DNA of 37,060 bases from Desulfurellaceae bacterium (GTDB lineage Bacteria > Desulfobacterota > Binatia > Bin18), in the NCBI GenBank assembly GCA_021296095.1, contig JAGWBB010000042.1, positions 1 through 37,060 of the forward strand, given 5' to 3'. Of this stretch, positions 26,504 to 35,945 are shown piece after piece. Position 1 is the first letter of the stretch. The number at the start of each line of letters is the position of its first letter. The notes below the pieces were generated by a model, which saw only the letters and a list, made by a program, of their open reading frames with translations, was not told the origin of the DNA and searched no databases. A program made the translations under genes and the position numbers.

Positions 26504-27220
26504 TCAGGCCATGCACCGCTCCAGCCGCTCCTTGCGCCTCGGCCAGTCCGGCAGCACCCGATCCAGCAGGGCGAAAAAGGCCGGCCCATGGTGGGGCTCG
26601 GCAATGTGGCACAGCTCATGGGTGATGACATAGTCAATCGCCTCGACCGGCGCCTCGACCAGGCGGCGGTTGAGCAGCAGCCGCGAGGTCGGCGACATCG
26701 ACCCCCAGCGCCGACGCAGCCGTCGGACGCTCAGCCCCTGCGGCCGGACCGCTTCCGGGTCGGGGAAGCGCGCCAGGTTCACCTCCAGCCGTTCGGCGAA
26801 TTTGACCTGAGCCCGGTCGCGGTACCAGCCTTCGACCAGCCCGCGCGTGACCTCGGCCCGCTCAGGTTCACGGCTGTGGACAAGGATAAAGCCACGGCTC
26901 AGCCTGACCGTCGCCCGCGCGTGGGGCAACACCTTCAGGCGATACCGCCGGCCGAGATAGCGATGGGTTTCGCCGGCCACAAAACGCCGCTCGGGCGTCT
27001 GGGGCAGATACCGGGCGAAAAGGCGCTGCTGGCGGCGCACCCAGGCCGCACGCTTGCGCACCTTGTCGGCAATGGCCTCCAGCGGGGCGTCGAGCGGCGC
27101 GGCAACCACAACCGTCGCATCCGGCTCCACGCCGATCTCCAGGGTCGCGCGCTGGCGGCGCACCACCGCGAACTCAATCGTCTGCGCGCCGTAACGCACC
27201 CGATGCCGCTCCGCCCTCAT
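26504..27220 (-). CDS. YgjP-like M48 metallopeptidase domain protein (DUF45)
   Basis: A 238-residue protein with the zinc-protease motif HELCH, followed by the third ligand in HHGPAFFALLD and the upstream RRWGSMS/LLLNRRL segments. This is the YgjP/SprT-like fold often encoded beside type I restriction genes. Its start overlaps the end of the hsdR C-terminal frame by 4 bp (ATGA), so it is the last gene of the hsdR unit. The biological role of these proteins is poorly known. A role in controlling the restriction enzyme by proteolysis is a hypothesis. Confidence 0.85.
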   Translation of the reverse strand: MRAERHRVRYGAQTIEFAVVRRQRATLEIGVEPDATVVVAAPLDAPLEAIADKVRKRAAWVRRQQRLFARYLPQTPERRFVAGETHRYLGRRYRLKVLPHARATVRLSRGFILVHSREPERAEVTRGLVEGWYRDRAQVKFAERLEVNLARFPDPEAVRPQGLSVRRLRRRWGSMSPTSRLLLNRRLVEAPVEAIDYVITHELCHIAEPHHGPAFFALLDRVLPDWPRRKERLERCMA

Positions 27221-27993
27221 CCGGGAAACCTCGCCCTGGCCAGCTTCACGATCTCGGCCTCCAGCTCATCCAGGACCTCGTCCGACAGCGCGATGCCTTT
27301 CTCGTCGCGCAGCACATCGAAAAAGTAGTCGTCGATGGCGTTGCGCAGGCTGTTCTGGGCGACGGCGTTGGACCACATGTCAACGATGTGGTGAGCCTTG
27401 ACGATATCAATGATGGCCAGGGCGATAGTGGCGACCTCGACCCTGTCGAGCGGCTCGCTATCGGCGCGGACCAGCGCTCCGTCGAGAATGCCAAAAAACG
27501 CCTGCCCGTCGTCGTTGCCTCTGAGCGGCTCGGGCACGTCGCGGCCCCGGTCCTTGCGGGCAACCTTGGCGGCCAGCTCAAGCACCCGGTTGAGATAGTC
27601 GCGCTCGGACAGCCGTCTGGCGCGGTAGTCGCGGATCGTCTCCTCCAGCAGCTCCGAGAAGCGCCGGTAGAAGCTCGGGTCCTCGTCCAGCCTCTCGGTG
27701 AGGGTCCGCCGCGTGGCGCTGGCGATGCGGTCGGCCTTGGAGGCGTCGGAAATGCCCGTCTCGTCAACAATCGCCCTCAGCGCCTCGGGGTCGTTGATAT
27801 TGACGGCTTCGATAATGGTCTCGGCCGGCCCGGCGACCACCTGCTCATCGAGCAGCCGCCGTATCGTGGGCTCGAACTCCTTGACATCGACCGTCTCCTG
27901 GTAGCGCAGGCGGACCGCGTGCCGCAGCTCCGAGAAGCGCTGCCAGTCGCGCTTGAGCGTGTCAATCTGCGTCTGGTCGAACACGTCAAGCAC
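27217..27993 (-). CDS. hsdR: Type I restriction enzyme HsdR, C-terminal part (frameshifted gene)
   Basis: 258 residues from the GTG at 27993, all helical, matching the HsdR C-terminal region that binds the methyltransferase: the DTLKRDWQRFSELRHAVRLRY segment, RRLSERDYLNRVLELA and NSLRNAIDDYFFDVLRDE. The same frame is open upstream to about 28078 and there encodes KAVRQDFYERLRAFGRCLHI, the sequence expected to follow directly from the upstream frame. So this is the second piece of one gene, broken near 28078. Independent translation is uncertain. Confidence 0.85.
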   Translation of the reverse strand: MLDVFDQTQIDTLKRDWQRFSELRHAVRLRYQETVDVKEFEPTIRRLLDEQVVAGPAETIIEAVNINDPEALRAIVDETGISDASKADRIASATRRTLTERLDEDPSFYRRFSELLEETIRDYRARRLSERDYLNRVLELAAKVARKDRGRDVPEPLRGNDDGQAFFGILDGALVRADSEPLDRVEVATIALAIIDIVKAHHIVDMWSNAVAQNSLRNAIDDYFFDVLRDEKGIALSDEVLDELEAEIVKLARARFPG

Positions 27994-30502
27994 CTTGTGC
28001 GACGAGAGCGCAATGTGCAGACAGCGGCCAAAGGCGCGCAGCCGTTCGTAAAAGTCCTGACGGACAGCCTTGCTCCATGTCCCGCGTGTTCCTGACCGGC
28101 CGAAAGAGGTCCCACAGCTGATCGTGAAGCTGGGGCAGCCTGCGGATGTGCTCCCGCACGTCGTGCAGCGTCCCGGTCAGGTCCGCCGCGTCAAACCCCT
28201 GGAAGGCGGTATAGGTGGACAGCGCCTTGTCCAGCTCGCCGAGCAGCCCCTCGTAGTCGACGATGAAACCGAACTGCTTCTCAAGCCCGTCCTCCTCGTA
28301 CAGCCGGTTCACCCGCGCGATGGCTTGCAGCAGGGTGTGTTCGCGCAGCGACTTGCACACGTACAGCACCGCGTTGCGGGGCGCGTCAAAACCGGTCAGC
28401 AGCTTGGACACGACGATGAGGATTTCCGGCTCGCCCGGCCCCTTGAAGGCGTCAATGATCCGGCGATTATACTCGCCCTCCGTCCCGTACTGCGCCATCA
28501 TCCGCGTCCAGAACGCACGGACGAGGTCTTGGGATGCCGAATCAACCTCTTCGTTGCCCTCATTGTCGTCGGGCGGCGAAATGACGATGGCGCTGCTCAC
28601 CTGCCCGAGCGCGTCGAGCGCCGCCTTGAAGCGCACGGCCGCAGCCTTGGACGGGGCGACGAGCTGGGCCTTGAAGCCGCTCCCCTGCCAATACCGCCGG
28701 AAGTGTTCGGAGATATCGAGCGCCTTGGCCCGAATCGCCTGGTCGGTCTTGGCCAGGGCGTCCATGCGCGAGAACTTCCGCTTGAGGTCGGCCCGCTGCC
28801 GTTCGTTCAGCCCCCCGCTGAGCTTTTCGAACCAGCGGTCGATCATGTCCGGGGTGAGGCGCTGTGCGACAATCCGGCCCTCGTACAGCAGCGGCACCAC
28901 GGCTTCGTCGGCAACCGCCTCGTCTATGGCGTAGGTGTCGATAAGCCCGCCGAAGGTGGACAGGGTGTTCTTCTCCTTGTGCAGCAGCGGCGTGCCGGTA
29001 AAGCCGAGGTAGCAGGCCCTGGGCAGGATGCGCCGCATCTTCATGGCCAGCTCGCCGTGCCCGCCGTAGCGGCCGGTCTGGCTGCGGTGGCTCTCATCCA
29101 CCAGCACGAAGATGTTGGGGTCTTCGTCGGCCGCTGCGCCGCTCCGCGCCGCAATGTCGAATTTGTTGATGATGGTGGTGACCAGTGACGTCTTGTTGCG
29201 GATCAGCTTGAGCAGATGCGCGCCGCTGGTCGCCCGGACCGGCTCCATTTCGCACGACCGGAAGGTATCCCTGATCTGCCGGTCGAGGTCGTCACGGTCG
29301 GTCACGATGACGATGCGCGGGTTGGGAATGTCGTGGTCGAGCGCCAGGGCGCGGCCCAGCATGACCATGCTCAGCGACTTGCCCGAGCCCTGGGTGTGCC
29401 AGATGACGCCGCCCCTGCGACGGCCGGCCGTGTCGAACTGCTTGACCCGCTCCACGGCCCTGCAAACGGCGAAGAACTGCTGGTGACGGGCGATCTTGCG
29501 CACGCCGCCGTCAAAGACGGTGAAGCGTCGTACCAGATCGAGCAGGCGTGCGGGCCGGCACAGGGCGAAGATGGCGCGGTCCTGAGCCGTGATGGCGCGT
29601 CCGCCCTCGGCCGCCAGCGCCTCGAAATGCGCCCGCGCGTCGGCCAGCCCGCCGGCATACACAGCCTGGGCTTCGGCCACCGCCAGCGGCCGGTCAATCA
29701 AGCCCTGCAAGCGGACCGGCGGCTCAGCCAGCGGCGTGTCGTCCTCAAGCGCGCCGACCAGGGCCGCCCGTTCGGCCGCGTTCGGCTCTGCCGCAGCCAG
29801 CTCGGCCAGCCGCTCATCGTCCTCCTCGCGCCACGCCTGCCAGAACTTGCGTGGCGTGCCGACCGTTGCGTAGCGCGCCTCGCGCCGGTTCAGGCTCAGC
29901 AGCAGCTGGGCGAAGTGGAACAGCTGCGGGATGTTGTCCTCACCCTGGTAGCCGATCAGCTGGCTGTCAGCCTTTTTCAGGCTTGCGGTCGGTCGTTTGT
30001 TTTCGATGACCACAAAGGGGATGCCGTTGACGAAGGCGACAATGTCACAGCGGCGGGTCTGGGTGCTGCCGGTTCGCTCGACCGCCATCTCTGCGGTCAC
30101 GTGATACACGTTGTTGTCCGGCGTGTCCCAATCGACATAGCGGAACGAGTACGACTTCGAGTCTCCGTCAATGGTCTTGGTAATGGTCGTACCCAGCACG
30201 AGCGTGTCATAGATGTCCTGATTGGTGCCGCGCAGGCCCTTGAGCCGGTCGGGCGTGGGCTTCAGCCGACGTATCGCCTCATGGGCGTCTTCGAGATCGA
30301 AGGCATACTCGCGGCCGCGATGCGTGAACCGGTTGAGCCGCAGCAGCTGCTCGGTCAGCACCTCGTCGAGGATGACGTTGCGCAGCCGCCCGCCGCGCAA
30401 GGCCAGCGCCTCAGCCTGAGAGAGCGGCCTGAAGCCCAACGCCACCAGGAGTTGCAGAGCCGGGATTTGGGACTGATATTTTTCGGTCGCGTCGAAGCTC
30501 AT
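27986..30502 (-). CDS. hsdR: Type I restriction enzyme HsdR, N-terminal nuclease and translocase part
   Basis: About 838 residues from the ATG at 30502. The nuclease domain has D153 and E167-x-K169 (IENKRP), the PD-(D/E)XK site. The motor domain has Walker A QGSGKS (371-376), LVDESHRS as the DEAD-like box and later helicase motifs (LLTGFDAPRN, QAIARVNR). The frame breaks after NTRDMEQ near 28078; the last 28 or so residues are out-of-frame sequence. About 23 bp seem to be missing, estimated from usual HsdR sequences. With hsdM absent, the system is probably inactive. Confidence 0.88.
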   Translation of the reverse strand: MSFDATEKYQSQIPALQLLVALGFRPLSQAEALALRGGRLRNVILDEVLTEQLLRLNRFTHRGREYAFDLEDAHEAIRRLKPTPDRLKGLRGTNQDIYDTLVLGTTITKTIDGDSKSYSFRYVDWDTPDNNVYHVTAEMAVERTGSTQTRRCDIVAFVNGIPFVVIENKRPTASLKKADSQLIGYQGEDNIPQLFHFAQLLLSLNRREARYATVGTPRKFWQAWREEDDERLAELAAAEPNAAERAALVGALEDDTPLAEPPVRLQGLIDRPLAVAEAQAVYAGGLADARAHFEALAAEGGRAITAQDRAIFALCRPARLLDLVRRFTVFDGGVRKIARHQQFFAVCRAVERVKQFDTAGRRRGGVIWHTQGSGKSLSMVMLGRALALDHDIPNPRIVIVTDRDDLDRQIRDTFRSCEMEPVRATSGAHLLKLIRNKTSLVTTIINKFDIAARSGAAADEDPNIFVLVDESHRSQTGRYGGHGELAMKMRRILPRACYLGFTGTPLLHKEKNTLSTFGGLIDTYAIDEAVADEAVVPLLYEGRIVAQRLTPDMIDRWFEKLSGGLNERQRADLKRKFSRMDALAKTDQAIRAKALDISEHFRRYWQGSGFKAQLVAPSKAAAVRFKAALDALGQVSSAIVISPPDDNEGNEEVDSASQDLVRAFWTRMMAQYGTEGEYNRRIIDAFKGPGEPEILIVVSKLLTGFDAPRNAVLYVCKSLREHTLLQAIARVNRLYEEDGLEKQFGFIVDYEGLLGELDKALSTYTAFQGFDAADLTGTLHDVREHIRRLPQLHDQLWDLFRPVRNTRDMEQGCPSGLLRTAARLWPLSAHCALVAQGA

Positions 30503-30599
30503 AAACGTACCGGAGATAAAGTGAGGTCGGTCGGAAAGCCGGTGTTCGCCCACAGCGTCAGCGAGGCATCCGTTCGCGTTTGTGGCAGTGTCTCGCTTT

Positions 30600-31108: not shown

Positions 31109-31516
31109 TCATGAGGCGCGCCAGACTCGAAGCGGTGTCCACTCCGCAACGTGGGTGAAATCTCGGTCAGCCGATAACATGACCAGCTCGTGGCGGATGC
31201 AAAGCTGGGCGAGCAGCGCGTCAATGGTTCCGACCTGAACGCCGTGGCGACGGCACTCGTTGCGCAACCCAGCCGCGTCAATGTGGTCCTCGCGCCTCGG
31301 AACGATCATGGGTAAGGCGGCGAAGCGCTCCACGATCCGCGCCCCAGCCCTCGGTCCCTGATAGCCTTGCAACAATTCTTGCAGCACGATTCCGGTCGTA
31401 TGAATCGCTTCACCGCTCTGCAAGGCGTCCCGGAGACGCTGCACCTGGGGGCCTTCGGGCGCCGCATTGCGCCGCAAGGCCAGTGACCACACACTGGTGT
31501 CTACAAACAGCGTCAC
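31109..31516 (-). CDS. vapC: VapC-type PIN-domain RNase toxin
   Basis: 135 residues, a complete PIN domain with D6 (FVDTSVW), E47 (LQELLQG), D99 (GTIDALLAQL) and D117 (LSADRDF). VapC toxins cut tRNA or rRNA and block translation. The start overlaps the antitoxin end by 4 bp. Both genes look intact, in contrast to most neighbours in this island, as expected for an addictive pair. Confidence 0.9.
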   Translation of the reverse strand: MTLFVDTSVWSLALRRNAAPEGPQVQRLRDALQSGEAIHTTGIVLQELLQGYQGPRAGARIVERFAALPMIVPRREDHIDAAGLRNECRRHGVQVGTIDALLAQLCIRHELVMLSADRDFTHVAEWTPLRVWRAS

Positions 31517-31713
31517 CCGCGGGTCCGTTCACGCTTGTAGTCGTACTCGTCGTCCCAGTCGAACTTCCCGAACAAGTCGAGCAAGCGTTCCTGCTCTCGC
31601 CGAGCAATGAATTCCCGCAAGGCTCGGGTGACGGTCGCCTTCTTCGTTTTCTCGCCGCCGACTTCCAAGGCCTTGTTCAGGAGGGCCGAGTCTATCGCCA
31701 GATTCGTCGCCAT
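31513..31713 (-). CDS. vapB: VapB-type antitoxin
   Basis: About 66 residues: MATNLAIDSALLNKALEVGG, then KTKKATVTRALREFIARRE, a ribbon-helix-helix DNA-binding domain, and an acidic C-terminal tail (LFGKFDWDDEYDY) that would fill the VapC active site. I chose the ATG at 31713, 7 bp after GGAGAG; the ATG at 31728 lacks a site. Upstream, GTGTG occurs twice around an AT-rich TAATTTTAT, a possible promoter and operator. Confidence 0.87.
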   Translation of the reverse strand: MATNLAIDSALLNKALEVGGEKTKKATVTRALREFIARREQERLLDLFGKFDWDDEYDYKRERTRG

Positions 31714-31752: not shown

Positions 31753-32283
31753 TCAGAGCGCCGCTGCGGTCAAGCGCCTGGAGCGTTTCACGTTGGGCTG
31801 TAGGTGCCCGTCATGCCGGACTTGATCCAGCCTCCAATTGTGTCCCCACGGTACTGCCGTGACAATCTGGTACAGCAGTTCCTCCGCGTTGCCTTCCTGG
31901 TTCAATTTGGCAACAGCGTGTTGCCATTTTTCATCAACGGATGGGACGGAACTCTGCCGGTTCAATTCTGCGACGGCTTGCCGCAGAAATTCAGGCTGAG
32001 AGTAGGCGGTGTAAAACTGTCTCATGTTTCGCAGATTACGCGGCGAAAAGCCGGTCACTGCGGGAAAGGCTGTAGACAGGTCGCGCGACAGGCGATCTAT
32101 GACCGCCTGACCCCAGCCGTGGGCGTTCTGCTTTTCGACGATTCCGCGTCCGATGTCCCAATACAGCAGAATCAGGTCACGGTTCACGGCCCGTGCCGCA
32201 GAAATCTGCGCCGATTGAATGCGCGACTTGACCTCGCCCAGCCAGGCCGCGTAATCAGCCGCTTTTGCGACGGTATCGGTCAT
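31753..32283 (-). pseudogene. DUF1016 (YhcG-type) protein, truncated after the N-terminal domain
   Basis: 176 residues starting after AGGAGG. The N-terminal DUF1016 domain is clear: ISAARAVNRDLILLYWDIG, then HGWGQAVIDRLSRDL and GFSPRNLRNMRQFY. Full proteins have about 350 residues and end in a PD-(D/E)XK-type nuclease domain. Here the frame leaves homology after AVPWGHN and ends in a 27-residue tail (RLDQVRHDGHLQ onward). That tail resembles translation of a widespread intergenic repeat, TGGATCAAGTCCGGCATGA on the minus strand. It is most likely a remnant. Confidence 0.75.
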
Positions 32284-32684: not shown

Positions 32685-32855
32685 TCATCTCTTTACCCGC
32701 CATTCGCCAGTGAGCAGCTTTTGCATCAGGCTGCGTTTCTGGCGTGCCACAGTGGCTATCTCAGCCTGAAACCTTTCTACCACCTCGCTCCCTGTCTTCA
32801 GGATTCCAGCAATCTCGCGCTGCTCAGAGAGAGAGGGGAGAGAAACGGTCATTTT
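32685..32855 (-). pseudogene. hsdS 3'-end fragment (tail copy 1)
   Basis: The frame encodes VSLPSLSEQREIAGIL, a helical segment, then RQKRSLMQKLLTGEWRVKR-stop. This is the distal conserved helix and C-terminus of a type I specificity subunit. It closely matches the end of the complete hsdS at 34749 (RQKRGLMQKLLTGEWRVK). The DNA also matches: about 50 bp around the tail differ at only a few positions. No target-recognition domain precedes it. Confidence 0.8.
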
Positions 32856-32868
32856 GCGTCTCCGCTTC

Positions 32869-33237
32869 CTAACGGCCAGGCTCGCCTTGATTCGGGGGAG
32901 CGTCGTGCAACACGAAACCCTCATCCGGCAAGAACCCGCTTGCTTCGATAGATTTGTGCTGAGGCACGAGCATCAACGGTTGATCCAGACCGGCCGCCGG
33001 GGTTGTCAGATACCATTCCTCTGTTCCCGCCTCGACCAGCAGTGACCGCAAATCGAGCAGACCGGCGCGGAATTGGCGCAACCGTTCCGGCCCAACGCCC
33101 GCCACCAGGTAGCGATCCAGGCCGTTCTGAGCCTCAACCGCTACCGCAATGTATTGCCCGCCCGTGGCATCCTGCGCCTCGAAAACCTGCGGGCCATCGT
33201 AAGAGAAGAGCGTGTTCGTGTGTTGGATCGTTTTCAT
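32869..33237 (-). CDS. DUF6575-like protein of unknown function
   Basis: 122 residues, soluble. The sequence has SYDGPQVFEAQDATGGQYIAV, DRYLVAGVGPERLRQFRAG and LLDLRSLLVEAG, which I associate with DUF6575-type proteins seen near toxin-antitoxin and restriction genes. The C-terminus stops at GFLPDEGFVLHD plus a few residues, right where the hsdS tail begins, so it may be cut short. No catalytic motif is visible. Confidence 0.6.
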   Translation of the reverse strand: MKTIQHTNTLFSYDGPQVFEAQDATGGQYIAVAVEAQNGLDRYLVAGVGPERLRQFRAGLLDLRSLLVEAGTEEWYLTTPAAGLDQPLMLVPQHKSIEASGFLPDEGFVLHDAPPNQGEPGR

Positions 33238-33354: not shown

Positions 33355-34749
33355 TCATTCCCGTAGGAAGTCATAAAGCTGTTCCAGCCTTTTTAGCAAT
33401 TCATCGAAAGTGACGATTTCAACGTCCTTGGAATTTCCACGGAAAAACTCGAATGACTTCAACTGGTCTTCGTCTGACGGCACCCTCCCAATAATCAGAC
33501 AGCAGTGAACCGAGTATGACTCGATGTCATAAATTCGACTGTTATTTTTAATTTGCGCGATTTGGCCCTCGAACTGATACTTCTGATCAAGCACCTGGTT
33601 GATTGACCCAGATAACGCTACTGACGGTGTGTAGACCCCTTCGCGGTACGGAGTCCCATTGAGAAGTTTCGCCTGTGGGGTCTTGATTTCTATGATCGCC
33701 GCGTTGTTGGTCAGGCTGTTCTTGACCAGAAAATCGGTGATCTTCCCGCCTGAACCGGAAAACTTGCGGCCACCGACCGAAGCCTGATCCTGGACCTTGA
33801 TGGCCGGATAACCGAACGCTTGATTCAGAATGAACGGATTCTGGTTGAAAAAGGCCTGCCAGTGGCTTTCGTCAAGTTTCTGGCAGAGCATTTCTTTGTA
33901 ACGCTTAATCAGGTTTTCGAGCGTCACCAGCTCAATGTCGCTTTGCAGCTTGGCAAGCTTGTCGGGATGCTTCTCGGCAATATCCTTGGCGTGGTCACTC
34001 ACCACGCGGAGTACCGCATTTTGGTCGTCTTCTGAAAGAGGCTCTTTACCTTCCGCTGCGGCCGTTAAGAGTTTGCGGTAAGGATGCCTCCCGGTCTTAG
34101 CAGTCTTGGTGGGTAATCCGAGACGCTTAGCCAGAATGTTGTAAGCGGCTACTTTTTTGACCGAGTATGCAGCGTTCCGGGTGTGCTGAGCGACCTTGTT
34201 TAGCTCCAACCTCAGCTCCTCAAAATCCTCTTCGGCAATATTGAAGACTCGGCCCCTGGACGTTATCCCGGTCTGACGTTTGCTCGAAATCACAATCTCG
34301 GTGCAGTCGGAGAGTGATTGTACGGCGTCTATAATGGAGTAGTAAGGCCTGGCTAGGCCAAGGCCATATGCATAGTCCTTGGTGAAGGTCGAAGGGAGGT
34401 CCTGCAACATTGCTCGAACCTCTTCGGATGTTTCGGGTACGGTTTGGTCGAAATCCAGATAAGAGCTATCCGGGCACTCAAGCGTGATGCACTTAACCTT
34501 GCTGTATTTTGATTTTAAGAATCTATCGTGAAGGCTAAGAGTATAGAGTGTTCTAATGGGATAGATCGTGAGAGATCGCTCCTTACCGTTGATGAGCAAT
34601 AGCTTGGTCCTATGCTCGCCCACCTCACCCGAGTCCAGGCGTGCATGCTCTGGAGGGACGAAATATACCTTCGCGATATTAGGGCGAATCTTCTTCACTC
34701 TCAGAAAGCCATCACGCTTAGGATCATGGGGCACCTGGATCCGAGGCAT
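33355..34749 (-). CDS. Shedu anti-phage nuclease (SduA, DUF4263)
   Basis: A 464-residue protein. Residues 290-390 are the DUF4263 nuclease: DESHWQAFFNQNPFIL, then ITDF with D339, IIEIKTP with E354 and K356 (a PD-(D/E)XK site), and YREGVYTPSVALSGSINQVL. Single-gene Shedu systems protect bacteria from phage by DNA cleavage; the N-terminal 280 residues are probably the sensing part. Its ATG overlaps the hsdS stop by one base (TGATG), so it is made from the hsdS transcript. Catalytic residues look intact. Confidence 0.85.
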   Translation of the reverse strand: MPRIQVPHDPKRDGFLRVKKIRPNIAKVYFVPPEHARLDSGEVGEHRTKLLLINGKERSLTIYPIRTLYTLSLHDRFLKSKYSKVKCITLECPDSSYLDFDQTVPETSEEVRAMLQDLPSTFTKDYAYGLGLARPYYSIIDAVQSLSDCTEIVISSKRQTGITSRGRVFNIAEEDFEELRLELNKVAQHTRNAAYSVKKVAAYNILAKRLGLPTKTAKTGRHPYRKLLTAAAEGKEPLSEDDQNAVLRVVSDHAKDIAEKHPDKLAKLQSDIELVTLENLIKRYKEMLCQKLDESHWQAFFNQNPFILNQAFGYPAIKVQDQASVGGRKFSGSGGKITDFLVKNSLTNNAAIIEIKTPQAKLLNGTPYREGVYTPSVALSGSINQVLDQKYQFEGQIAQIKNNSRIYDIESYSVHCCLIIGRVPSDEDQLKSFEFFRGNSKDVEIVTFDELLKRLEQLYDFLRE

Positions 34750-35945
34750 CAGTTTTCCTCCACTTTAACCCGCCATTCGCCGGTGAGCAGCTTTTGCATC
34801 AGGCCGCGTTTCTGGCGCGTGAGAGTGTCAAGTTCGGTTTCGCGGAGGGCAATCTCACGGTCGGCCACGGCGAGGACCTCTGCGATCTCATCCTGTCGGT
34901 CACGCTGCGGAAGTTTTACCGGGGATGCCAGAAAATCGTCTGGCGCAATCCGACGCGCCTTGCGCTGGCCACGGGCAAGGTGAAGCTGGGCCGTGTAATA
35001 GGCAGGGCGCGTGAGATACTCGATTAACCACTTCGGGTTGACGTGTTCGCTGATATCGAAGGCCGGCAGGTCCAAGCTCGATTCGTAGCCTCGAAGCGAT
35101 TCAGGAACAAGGGCGAACGCGCCATTCAAGAAATCAAGCTTGCTGTAGATCAGTTGACCAGGAGAGCGGCGATAGTAACGGGTTTTCGTACTCCCGTCTC
35201 GTTTGTCGCTCTTTGGCACGGCTCCCTTTCCGTAGAGTTTTACCGTGATCTTTCGGGCTGACGCACCGTCTGAACCAAGAATGCGGCTTTCTGTGAGAAA
35301 TTCGCCAAAAACGGTGGGCCGTCCGCCGAGGACGGCTTCAGTAATCAGTTTGGTTCGTAGCGCTTCACGACGGGCGTTCAGCGCTGTTGCAAGTTTTGTT
35401 GCGGCCTCAATCGCCTCGTCCCAGGTCCGCAGGATTTCGGCAATTTTGCGCTGTTCGGGGAGCGAGGGAAGAAGAACGGGAAACTCCTTGAGTTGTGTCG
35501 AATTGATACTCGCAAGATTCGTGCTCTGCTTTGACGAGAGCTGAAAATAGCGCCGTCCATACCCGGAGGCGGCCTGATACGCGAGAAATTCGGGCAGCAA
35601 CAAAGATGCCTTCGGACGAACAGCAAAAATATGATTCTGGTGTAAGCAGGGCGTAATCTGACCTTGCCAGACCGTTCCCCTCCCCAACTTGTCGAAGTCG
35701 CCGCCCTCCGTGAACAGGACATCGCCATCCCGAAGGCTGTACCTCTCGACCTCAGCCTGTTCGACCGCAATTTCCTTGATTACCGAAAGATCAACATACC
35801 CGTCCTGGACATTCGCAACACGCAGATAAGGCAGGGAAATAGGCGAACCATTCACGCGCTTGCCTTTGGCAAGGCCGGTCTGAACATCGGATAGCAAGGA
35901 GAGCGGAACCTTCCGCCAATCTTTGGGAAGTTCTGGGCTACGCAC
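34749..35945 (-). CDS. hsdS: Type I restriction-modification specificity subunit HsdS
   Basis: 398 residues with the usual double layout: a first target-recognition domain (10-160), a conserved helix (LPSLPEQRKIAEIL onward), a second target-recognition domain (200-345), and a second helix ending LMQKLLTGEWRVKVEEN. It would direct HsdM/HsdR to a bipartite DNA site. GTG start 6 bp after AAGGAG. Unusually, no hsdM precedes it; a truncated HicB gene does, and a Shedu gene follows with a one-base overlap. Confidence 0.92.
   Translation of the reverse strand: MRSPELPKDWRKVPLSLLSDVQTGLAKGKRVNGSPISLPYLRVANVQDGYVDLSVIKEIAVEQAEVERYSLRDGDVLFTEGGDFDKLGRGTVWQGQITPCLHQNHIFAVRPKASLLLPEFLAYQAASGYGRRYFQLSSKQSTNLASINSTQLKEFPVLLPSLPEQRKIAEILRTWDEAIEAATKLATALNARREALRTKLITEAVLGGRPTVFGEFLTESRILGSDGASARKITVKLYGKGAVPKSDKRDGSTKTRYYRRSPGQLIYSKLDFLNGAFALVPESLRGYESSLDLPAFDISEHVNPKWLIEYLTRPAYYTAQLHLARGQRKARRIAPDDFLASPVKLPQRDRQDEIAEVLAVADREIALRETELDTLTRQKRGLMQKLLTGEWRVKVEEN

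Follow-up and report, generated by a model that had tools for sequence, protein, structure and literature searches.

The anticodon nuclease gene prrC is found between hsdS and hsdR. In EcoprrI, a type IC system, its product is sequestered and silenced by the restriction-modification complex and released by the T4 protein Stp (PMC3874165), and rlo inserts occupy type I loci of Campylobacter (PMC2610378). DarTG2, a toxin-antitoxin pair that the repressor RptR controls, likewise lies between hsdS and hsdR in the RRDM island of EPEC, a position its authors consider a potential recombination hotspot for defence systems (PMC12255303), and further candidate defence genes have been gathered by 'guilt-by-embedding' (PMC10855318). 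Shedu, by contrast, has been described in its types I and II as a single-protein system (PMC12409362), and a literature search whose coverage lay outside the main Shedu papers and the embedded-defence preprints found no description of Shedu in the hsdS–hsdR position.

Here we describe such an arrangement in a 37,060-nt stretch of bacterial DNA (the window). As with PrrC and rlo, a separate defence effector gene sits inside a type I (IC-like) hsd operon; unlike PrrC, the effector belongs to the Shedu family and cuts DNA. The DarTG2 locus of EPEC shares with the window both the hsdS–hsdR slot and a metallopeptidase gene at the operon end, differing in its effector and in that the half-length hsdS of the window's family is not mentioned for it. 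The same operon family also contains the PADLOC candidates RhuM (PDC-S05), HAD (PDC-S34) and DUF4917 (PDC-S21); unlike these candidates, SduA is a nuclease with an established role in defence. By analogy, the window sduA would work like an embedded payload of a known kind, with Shedu as its cargo. Our preferred reading, to which we give a probability of roughly 0.78, is that sduA is an interchangeable defence payload in the hsdS–hsdR slot of an EcoR124-like operon, and probably an independent nuclease rather than one aimed by HsdS.

A Shedu gene within a type I restriction operon

The window's hsdS (34749..35945, minus strand; GTG start, 398 aa) encodes a type I specificity subunit (Pfam Methylase_S, 2.9e-15; PADLOC Specificity_I, 3.6e-55) and is followed directly by sduA (33355..34749, minus strand; ATG start, 464 aa), which encodes a Shedu nuclease (Pfam SduA_C, 2.1e-25; PADLOC SduA, 3.5e-162). 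On the minus strand their junction reads ...GTGGAGGAAAACTGATGCCT..., the TGA of hsdS and the ATG of sduA having their A in common (TGATG), and a Shine-Dalgarno-like GGAGG lies in the last hsdS codons, just 5' of the sduA start. The C-terminal tail of HsdS, QKLLTGEWRVK, is conserved, and its DNA holds both the GGAGG and the TGATG used by sduA. The first-pass annotation had named these two genes and their one-base overlap; open reading frame coordinates and the minus-strand reading bear out the overlap, and Pfam, PADLOC and the presence of the catalytic residues bear out the identities.

The remainder of the operon likewise lies on the minus strand. Between sduA and hsdR the slot contains a further gene, for a DUF6575 protein (32869..33237; 8.4e-07), a relic of a second hsdS comprising its 3' end (32685..32888; ...RSLMQKLLTGEWRVKR*), a gene for a DUF1016_N protein (PDC-S02; 31753..32283) that is shorter than its full-length relatives, a VapB-like antitoxin reading frame judged by eye (31513..31713) and a VapC PIN toxin gene (31109..31516). 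Whereas sduA and hsdS are both intact, hsdR (27217-30553) is split near residue 780: its first part (27986..30553) aligns to HsdR 1-780, with nuclease and helicase domains present, and its last part (27217..27993) covers region 788-1071 in another frame, the frame and about 7 codons being lost in this draft assembly. HsdR is intact in most relatives, at about 1071 aa, and the break may be either a real loss or an error of the draft assembly; as assembled, the window lacks the intact HsdR expected of a type I system. The operon closes with a conserved last gene for a YgjP/SprT-like metalloprotease (26504..27220). The contig (63,420 bases) continues past the window, with hsdM at contig positions 37379-38896 on the minus strand and a half-length hsdS (201 aa) that shares 4 nt with hsdM. 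A single locus thus combines hsdM, hsdS and hsdR, as in type I restriction-modification. HsdM is closer to that of the type IC enzyme EcoR124II (1.2e-64) than to that of EcoKI (about 1e-17), and the first match of HsdR is EcoR124 HsdR, similarities by which the operon appears EcoR124-like and IC-like.

The SduA protein has an N-terminal domain (about residues 1-232) and a C-terminal PD-(D/E)XK nuclease (about 260-464). Residues D339, E354 and K356 of the catalytic site are present and conserved in relatives, giving the DUF4263/SduA_C domain with catalytic residues by which Shedu is recognized. The sequence matches known SduA proteins (B. cereus 8ti8 and 8ti9; E. coli 8ps4 and 8ps5) with E 6.8e-46, and in structure comparison the nuclease domain matches B. 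cereus 8ti9 with Z 22.9, establishing an intact Shedu nuclease core. What separates this protein from the B. cereus and E. coli ones, which share its C-terminal nuclease, is its surrounding restriction-modification operon and its N-terminal domain, which is without a solved relative: the predicted model of residues 1-232 (pLDDT 84, fair confidence) found no match in the PDB, E. coli SduA included, a result compatible with kinship.

These structural comparisons bear on a special form of the payload reading, in which ends made by type I cleavage would activate Shedu to degrade linear DNA, selection acting on joint expression with no contact between the proteins. Sensing of free DNA ends is described for some Shedu proteins, in the part of PMC12409362 that cites Loeff 2025 and Gu 2025. 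The full-length SduA model does align with E. coli SduA (8ps4/8ps5) over residues 15-464 with Z about 13, but at an rmsd of 18 Å, and we set this fit aside as evidence; with the N-terminal domain alone finding no E. coli SduA match, and with HsdR broken in the window assembly, we regard cooperation through DNA ends as a tentative possibility.

Recurrence of the hsdS–sduA pair

The closest plasmid homologues, in Methylocystis, Roseicitreum and Neotabrizicola, encode SduA proteins 61-62% identical to that of the window, in operons ordered half-hsdS, hsdM, rhuM, hsdS, sduA, a HAD or DUF3800 gene, hsdR and ygjP, and each has the 1-nt overlap between hsdS and sduA. An alignment-based profile scan, taking one genome per species, yielded 25 more SduA loci; a scan of genome contigs with the single window protein as query gave no match, and phage records contained no SduA relative. 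A TGATG or TAATG junction occurs in genome loci L025, L026, L028, L029 and L044, while in L034 hsdS and sduA abut directly. A related sduA therefore follows hsdS in ten operons: the window, eight with the 1-nt overlap, and one in which the genes abut. With eight further operons sharing it, the overlap can hardly be a local accident. Neither is it special to this pair of genes, since in the eight-gene Methylocystis operon all seven junctions overlap, by 1-8 nt.

The window's SduA belongs to a clade of 12 rows in the SduA tree (support 92/85), 10 of which have the hsdS–sduA pair. The other two are L030, which is solitary, and L027, which has a TGATG and upstream DNA without an hsdS tail, too short to call its context; calls of context leave out L027, L032, L035 and L046, all with too little upstream DNA. 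Clade loci with enough DNA have much the same neighbourhood, and operons of this kind occur in alpha- and betaproteobacteria as well as in the window's own lineage. For this Shedu clade, then, the overlap is not unique to one genome and the contexts are not random, and the suggestion that Shedu rides on a restriction operon gains support. Elsewhere the association loosens: some SduA relatives stand alone, retaining the catalytic residues, and a survey of 395 host-phylum genomes turned up 15 other DUF4263 genes, each lacking an hsdS in the roughly 1.5 kb upstream. The link to hsdS thus belongs to particular Shedu clades and not to Shedu generally.

A second, distant Shedu clade (support 100/100) shows a comparable placement, with SduA 9 nt behind hsdS in EcoAI-type operons (L021, L038, L040 and L045); in its members L022, L039 and L043 hsdS is not next to sduA. 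In this clade sduA is mostly followed by a gene for a putative GHKL-type ATPase of 672 aa that overlaps it by 4 nt (L021:10001-13395, L039:10001-13395, L043:9956-13347, L045:9956-13353), and this pair is found with or without EcoAI-type restriction-modification genes. The ATPase call was made by eye, a Pfam search of the 672-aa protein giving no match. Fusions of GHKL and Shedu are known, as in VcSduA of V. cholerae (PMC12137116), and by analogy the pair may represent a split version of a VcSduA-like system. Two further loci (L041:1715-6386 and L024:7845-13300) have sduA followed by genes for an OLD-like AAA ATPase and a UvrD-like helicase, names given by eye and from record annotation, in an arrangement reminiscent of Gabija.

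Contents and exchange of the hsdS–hsdR slot

A reverse search from HsdM gave a view of operons that had not been chosen for SduA. HsdM at least 77% identical to that of the window's operon occurs on ten plasmids, only three of which carry SduA. Genomes of Alphaproteobacteria, the class to which L025 belongs, and of the order that includes the Rhodobacteraceae locus L029 brought the set to 20 non-redundant operons, a small sample and mostly Rhodobacterales. The gap between hsdS and hsdR is filled in all 20: by SduA in three, DUF6119 in six, a Ser/Thr kinase with a small protein in four, DUF3800 in four, HAD alone in one, a small protein with DUF4917 (PDC-S21) in one (L104), and a Kiwa-like pair of KwaB and a small upstream protein in one (L090). 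Among more distant relatives, Abi_2 and a dGTPase-like HD protein are further occupants (the latter in L116 and L118), and in two of these relatives, L109 and L115, the slot is almost empty. The non-Shedu payloads are joined to hsdS equally tightly, with a 1-nt overlap in L051 and L056, both carrying DUF6119, and overlaps of 4 or 8 nt elsewhere. Since unrelated payloads fill the same slot with similar junctions, adjacency to hsdS is not specific to Shedu. We summarize the operon as half-hsdS, hsdM, optional rhuM, hsdS, payload, hsdR and ygjP.

Two features upstream of the slot also recur. A half-size hsdS of about 200 aa, with one recognition domain, precedes hsdM in addition to the full hsdS in the window's own genome (L002:4894-5499, minus strand) and in L018-L020, L025, L028, L029, L034, L050-L055, L057 and L058, and is conserved across operons. 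The gap between hsdM and hsdS forms a second variable slot, containing RhuM (L018-L020), a GIY-YIG nuclease (L058) or nothing; in the window's own genome (L002:1991-3242) it contains a DUF1016-like fragment and small unassigned frames beside a run of N.

In comparisons of close relatives, the payload is the main difference between operons, and homology is lost at the hsdS 3' end and regained where hsdR starts. L034 (SduA) and L101 (kinase) have 91.5% DNA identity in the hsdM region and 89% from hsdR to ygjP. L019 (SduA, DUF3800) and L104 (DUF4917) share 85-91% identity until homology ends 10 nt short of the hsdS stop; from the hsdR start it returns, at 85%, for 9 kb. The payload has thus been swapped at the DNA level. 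Within these pairs the recognition part of hsdS diverges too, a difference that type I systems are expected to show. Exchange by recombination would be expected to leave such marks as the relic hsdS tail in the window, possibly a trace of recombination at the hsdS tail, the bare hsdS tail that precedes sduA in L033 and the low GC content of sduA (0.50 versus 0.65 for hsdR).

Nor does the restriction machinery distinguish Shedu-bearing operons. Second halves of HsdS that are 91% identical in DNA are found with and without Shedu, and SduA is scattered on the HsdM tree with no clear clustering: its label requires 7 changes, compared with 8.5 on average after shuffling, and 90 of 500 shuffles gave a value as low. 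A search of HsdM, HsdS and HsdR for alignment columns marking SduA-bearing operons found none with a frequency difference of at least 0.7; the best differences were 0.63 in HsdM (19/500 shuffles) and 0.63 in HsdS (37/500), with shuffles that ignore relatedness. These results tell against the first-pass suggestion that HsdS gives the Shedu nuclease its sequence specificity, in which SduA would bind HsdS or HsdMS and cut at HsdS sites. The conserved direct adjacency and 1-nt overlap, and the recurrence of adjacency in a second restriction-modification type, are what such guidance would predict, but the same overlap occurs with DUF6119, the operon already has an HsdR with its own nuclease domain, and solitary SduA relatives and the 15 host-phylum genes do without hsdS; we consider guidance by HsdS highly improbable.

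The same evidence bears on a guard role modelled on PrrC, in which the restriction complex would silence the payload, or be monitored by it, and Shedu would be freed when a phage inhibits restriction. Such control is proven in a related restriction type (PMC3874165, PMC2610378), and the HsdM of the window's operon is nearer to EcoR124II than to EcoKI. Against it stand the missing marker columns and the solitary SduA relatives, and a single restriction backbone would need to guard at least seven unrelated payloads, so that we think a guard role for Shedu unlikely. In a broader reading, the slot would be a standard docking position whose chemically unrelated effectors, Shedu among them, all answer to the state of a single restriction complex acting as a general guard backbone; we judge this plug-in arrangement quite unlikely.

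A Shedu clade as a probable restriction-operon payload

Under the payload reading, swaps would probably proceed through homologous recombination within the hsd genes on either side of the slot, with the end of hsdS providing a ribosome-binding site and stop-start overlap to whichever payload sits there. A payload so placed would be made together with the restriction enzyme, its translation coupled to that of hsdS. Shedu would then attack phage DNA independently of the restriction enzyme and in support of it, as an additional nuclease activated through a putative sensor in its N-terminal domain. Two observations count against so loose an association: in this clade SduA keeps to hsdS (10 of 12 rows) far more closely than Shedu does generally, and the second clade also lies behind hsdS, in an unrelated restriction-modification type. 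On both grounds, some functional link between Shedu and restriction-modification is plausible.

Described as a single-gene system, Shedu here contributes a whole clade as payload of type I restriction operons. This raises the question of whether embedded payloads are merely co-expressed with restriction, or wired to it as PrrC is. The slot is shared with kinases, Kiwa-like proteins, DUF4917 and DUF6119, and reading it in relatives is thus a way to find new defence genes.
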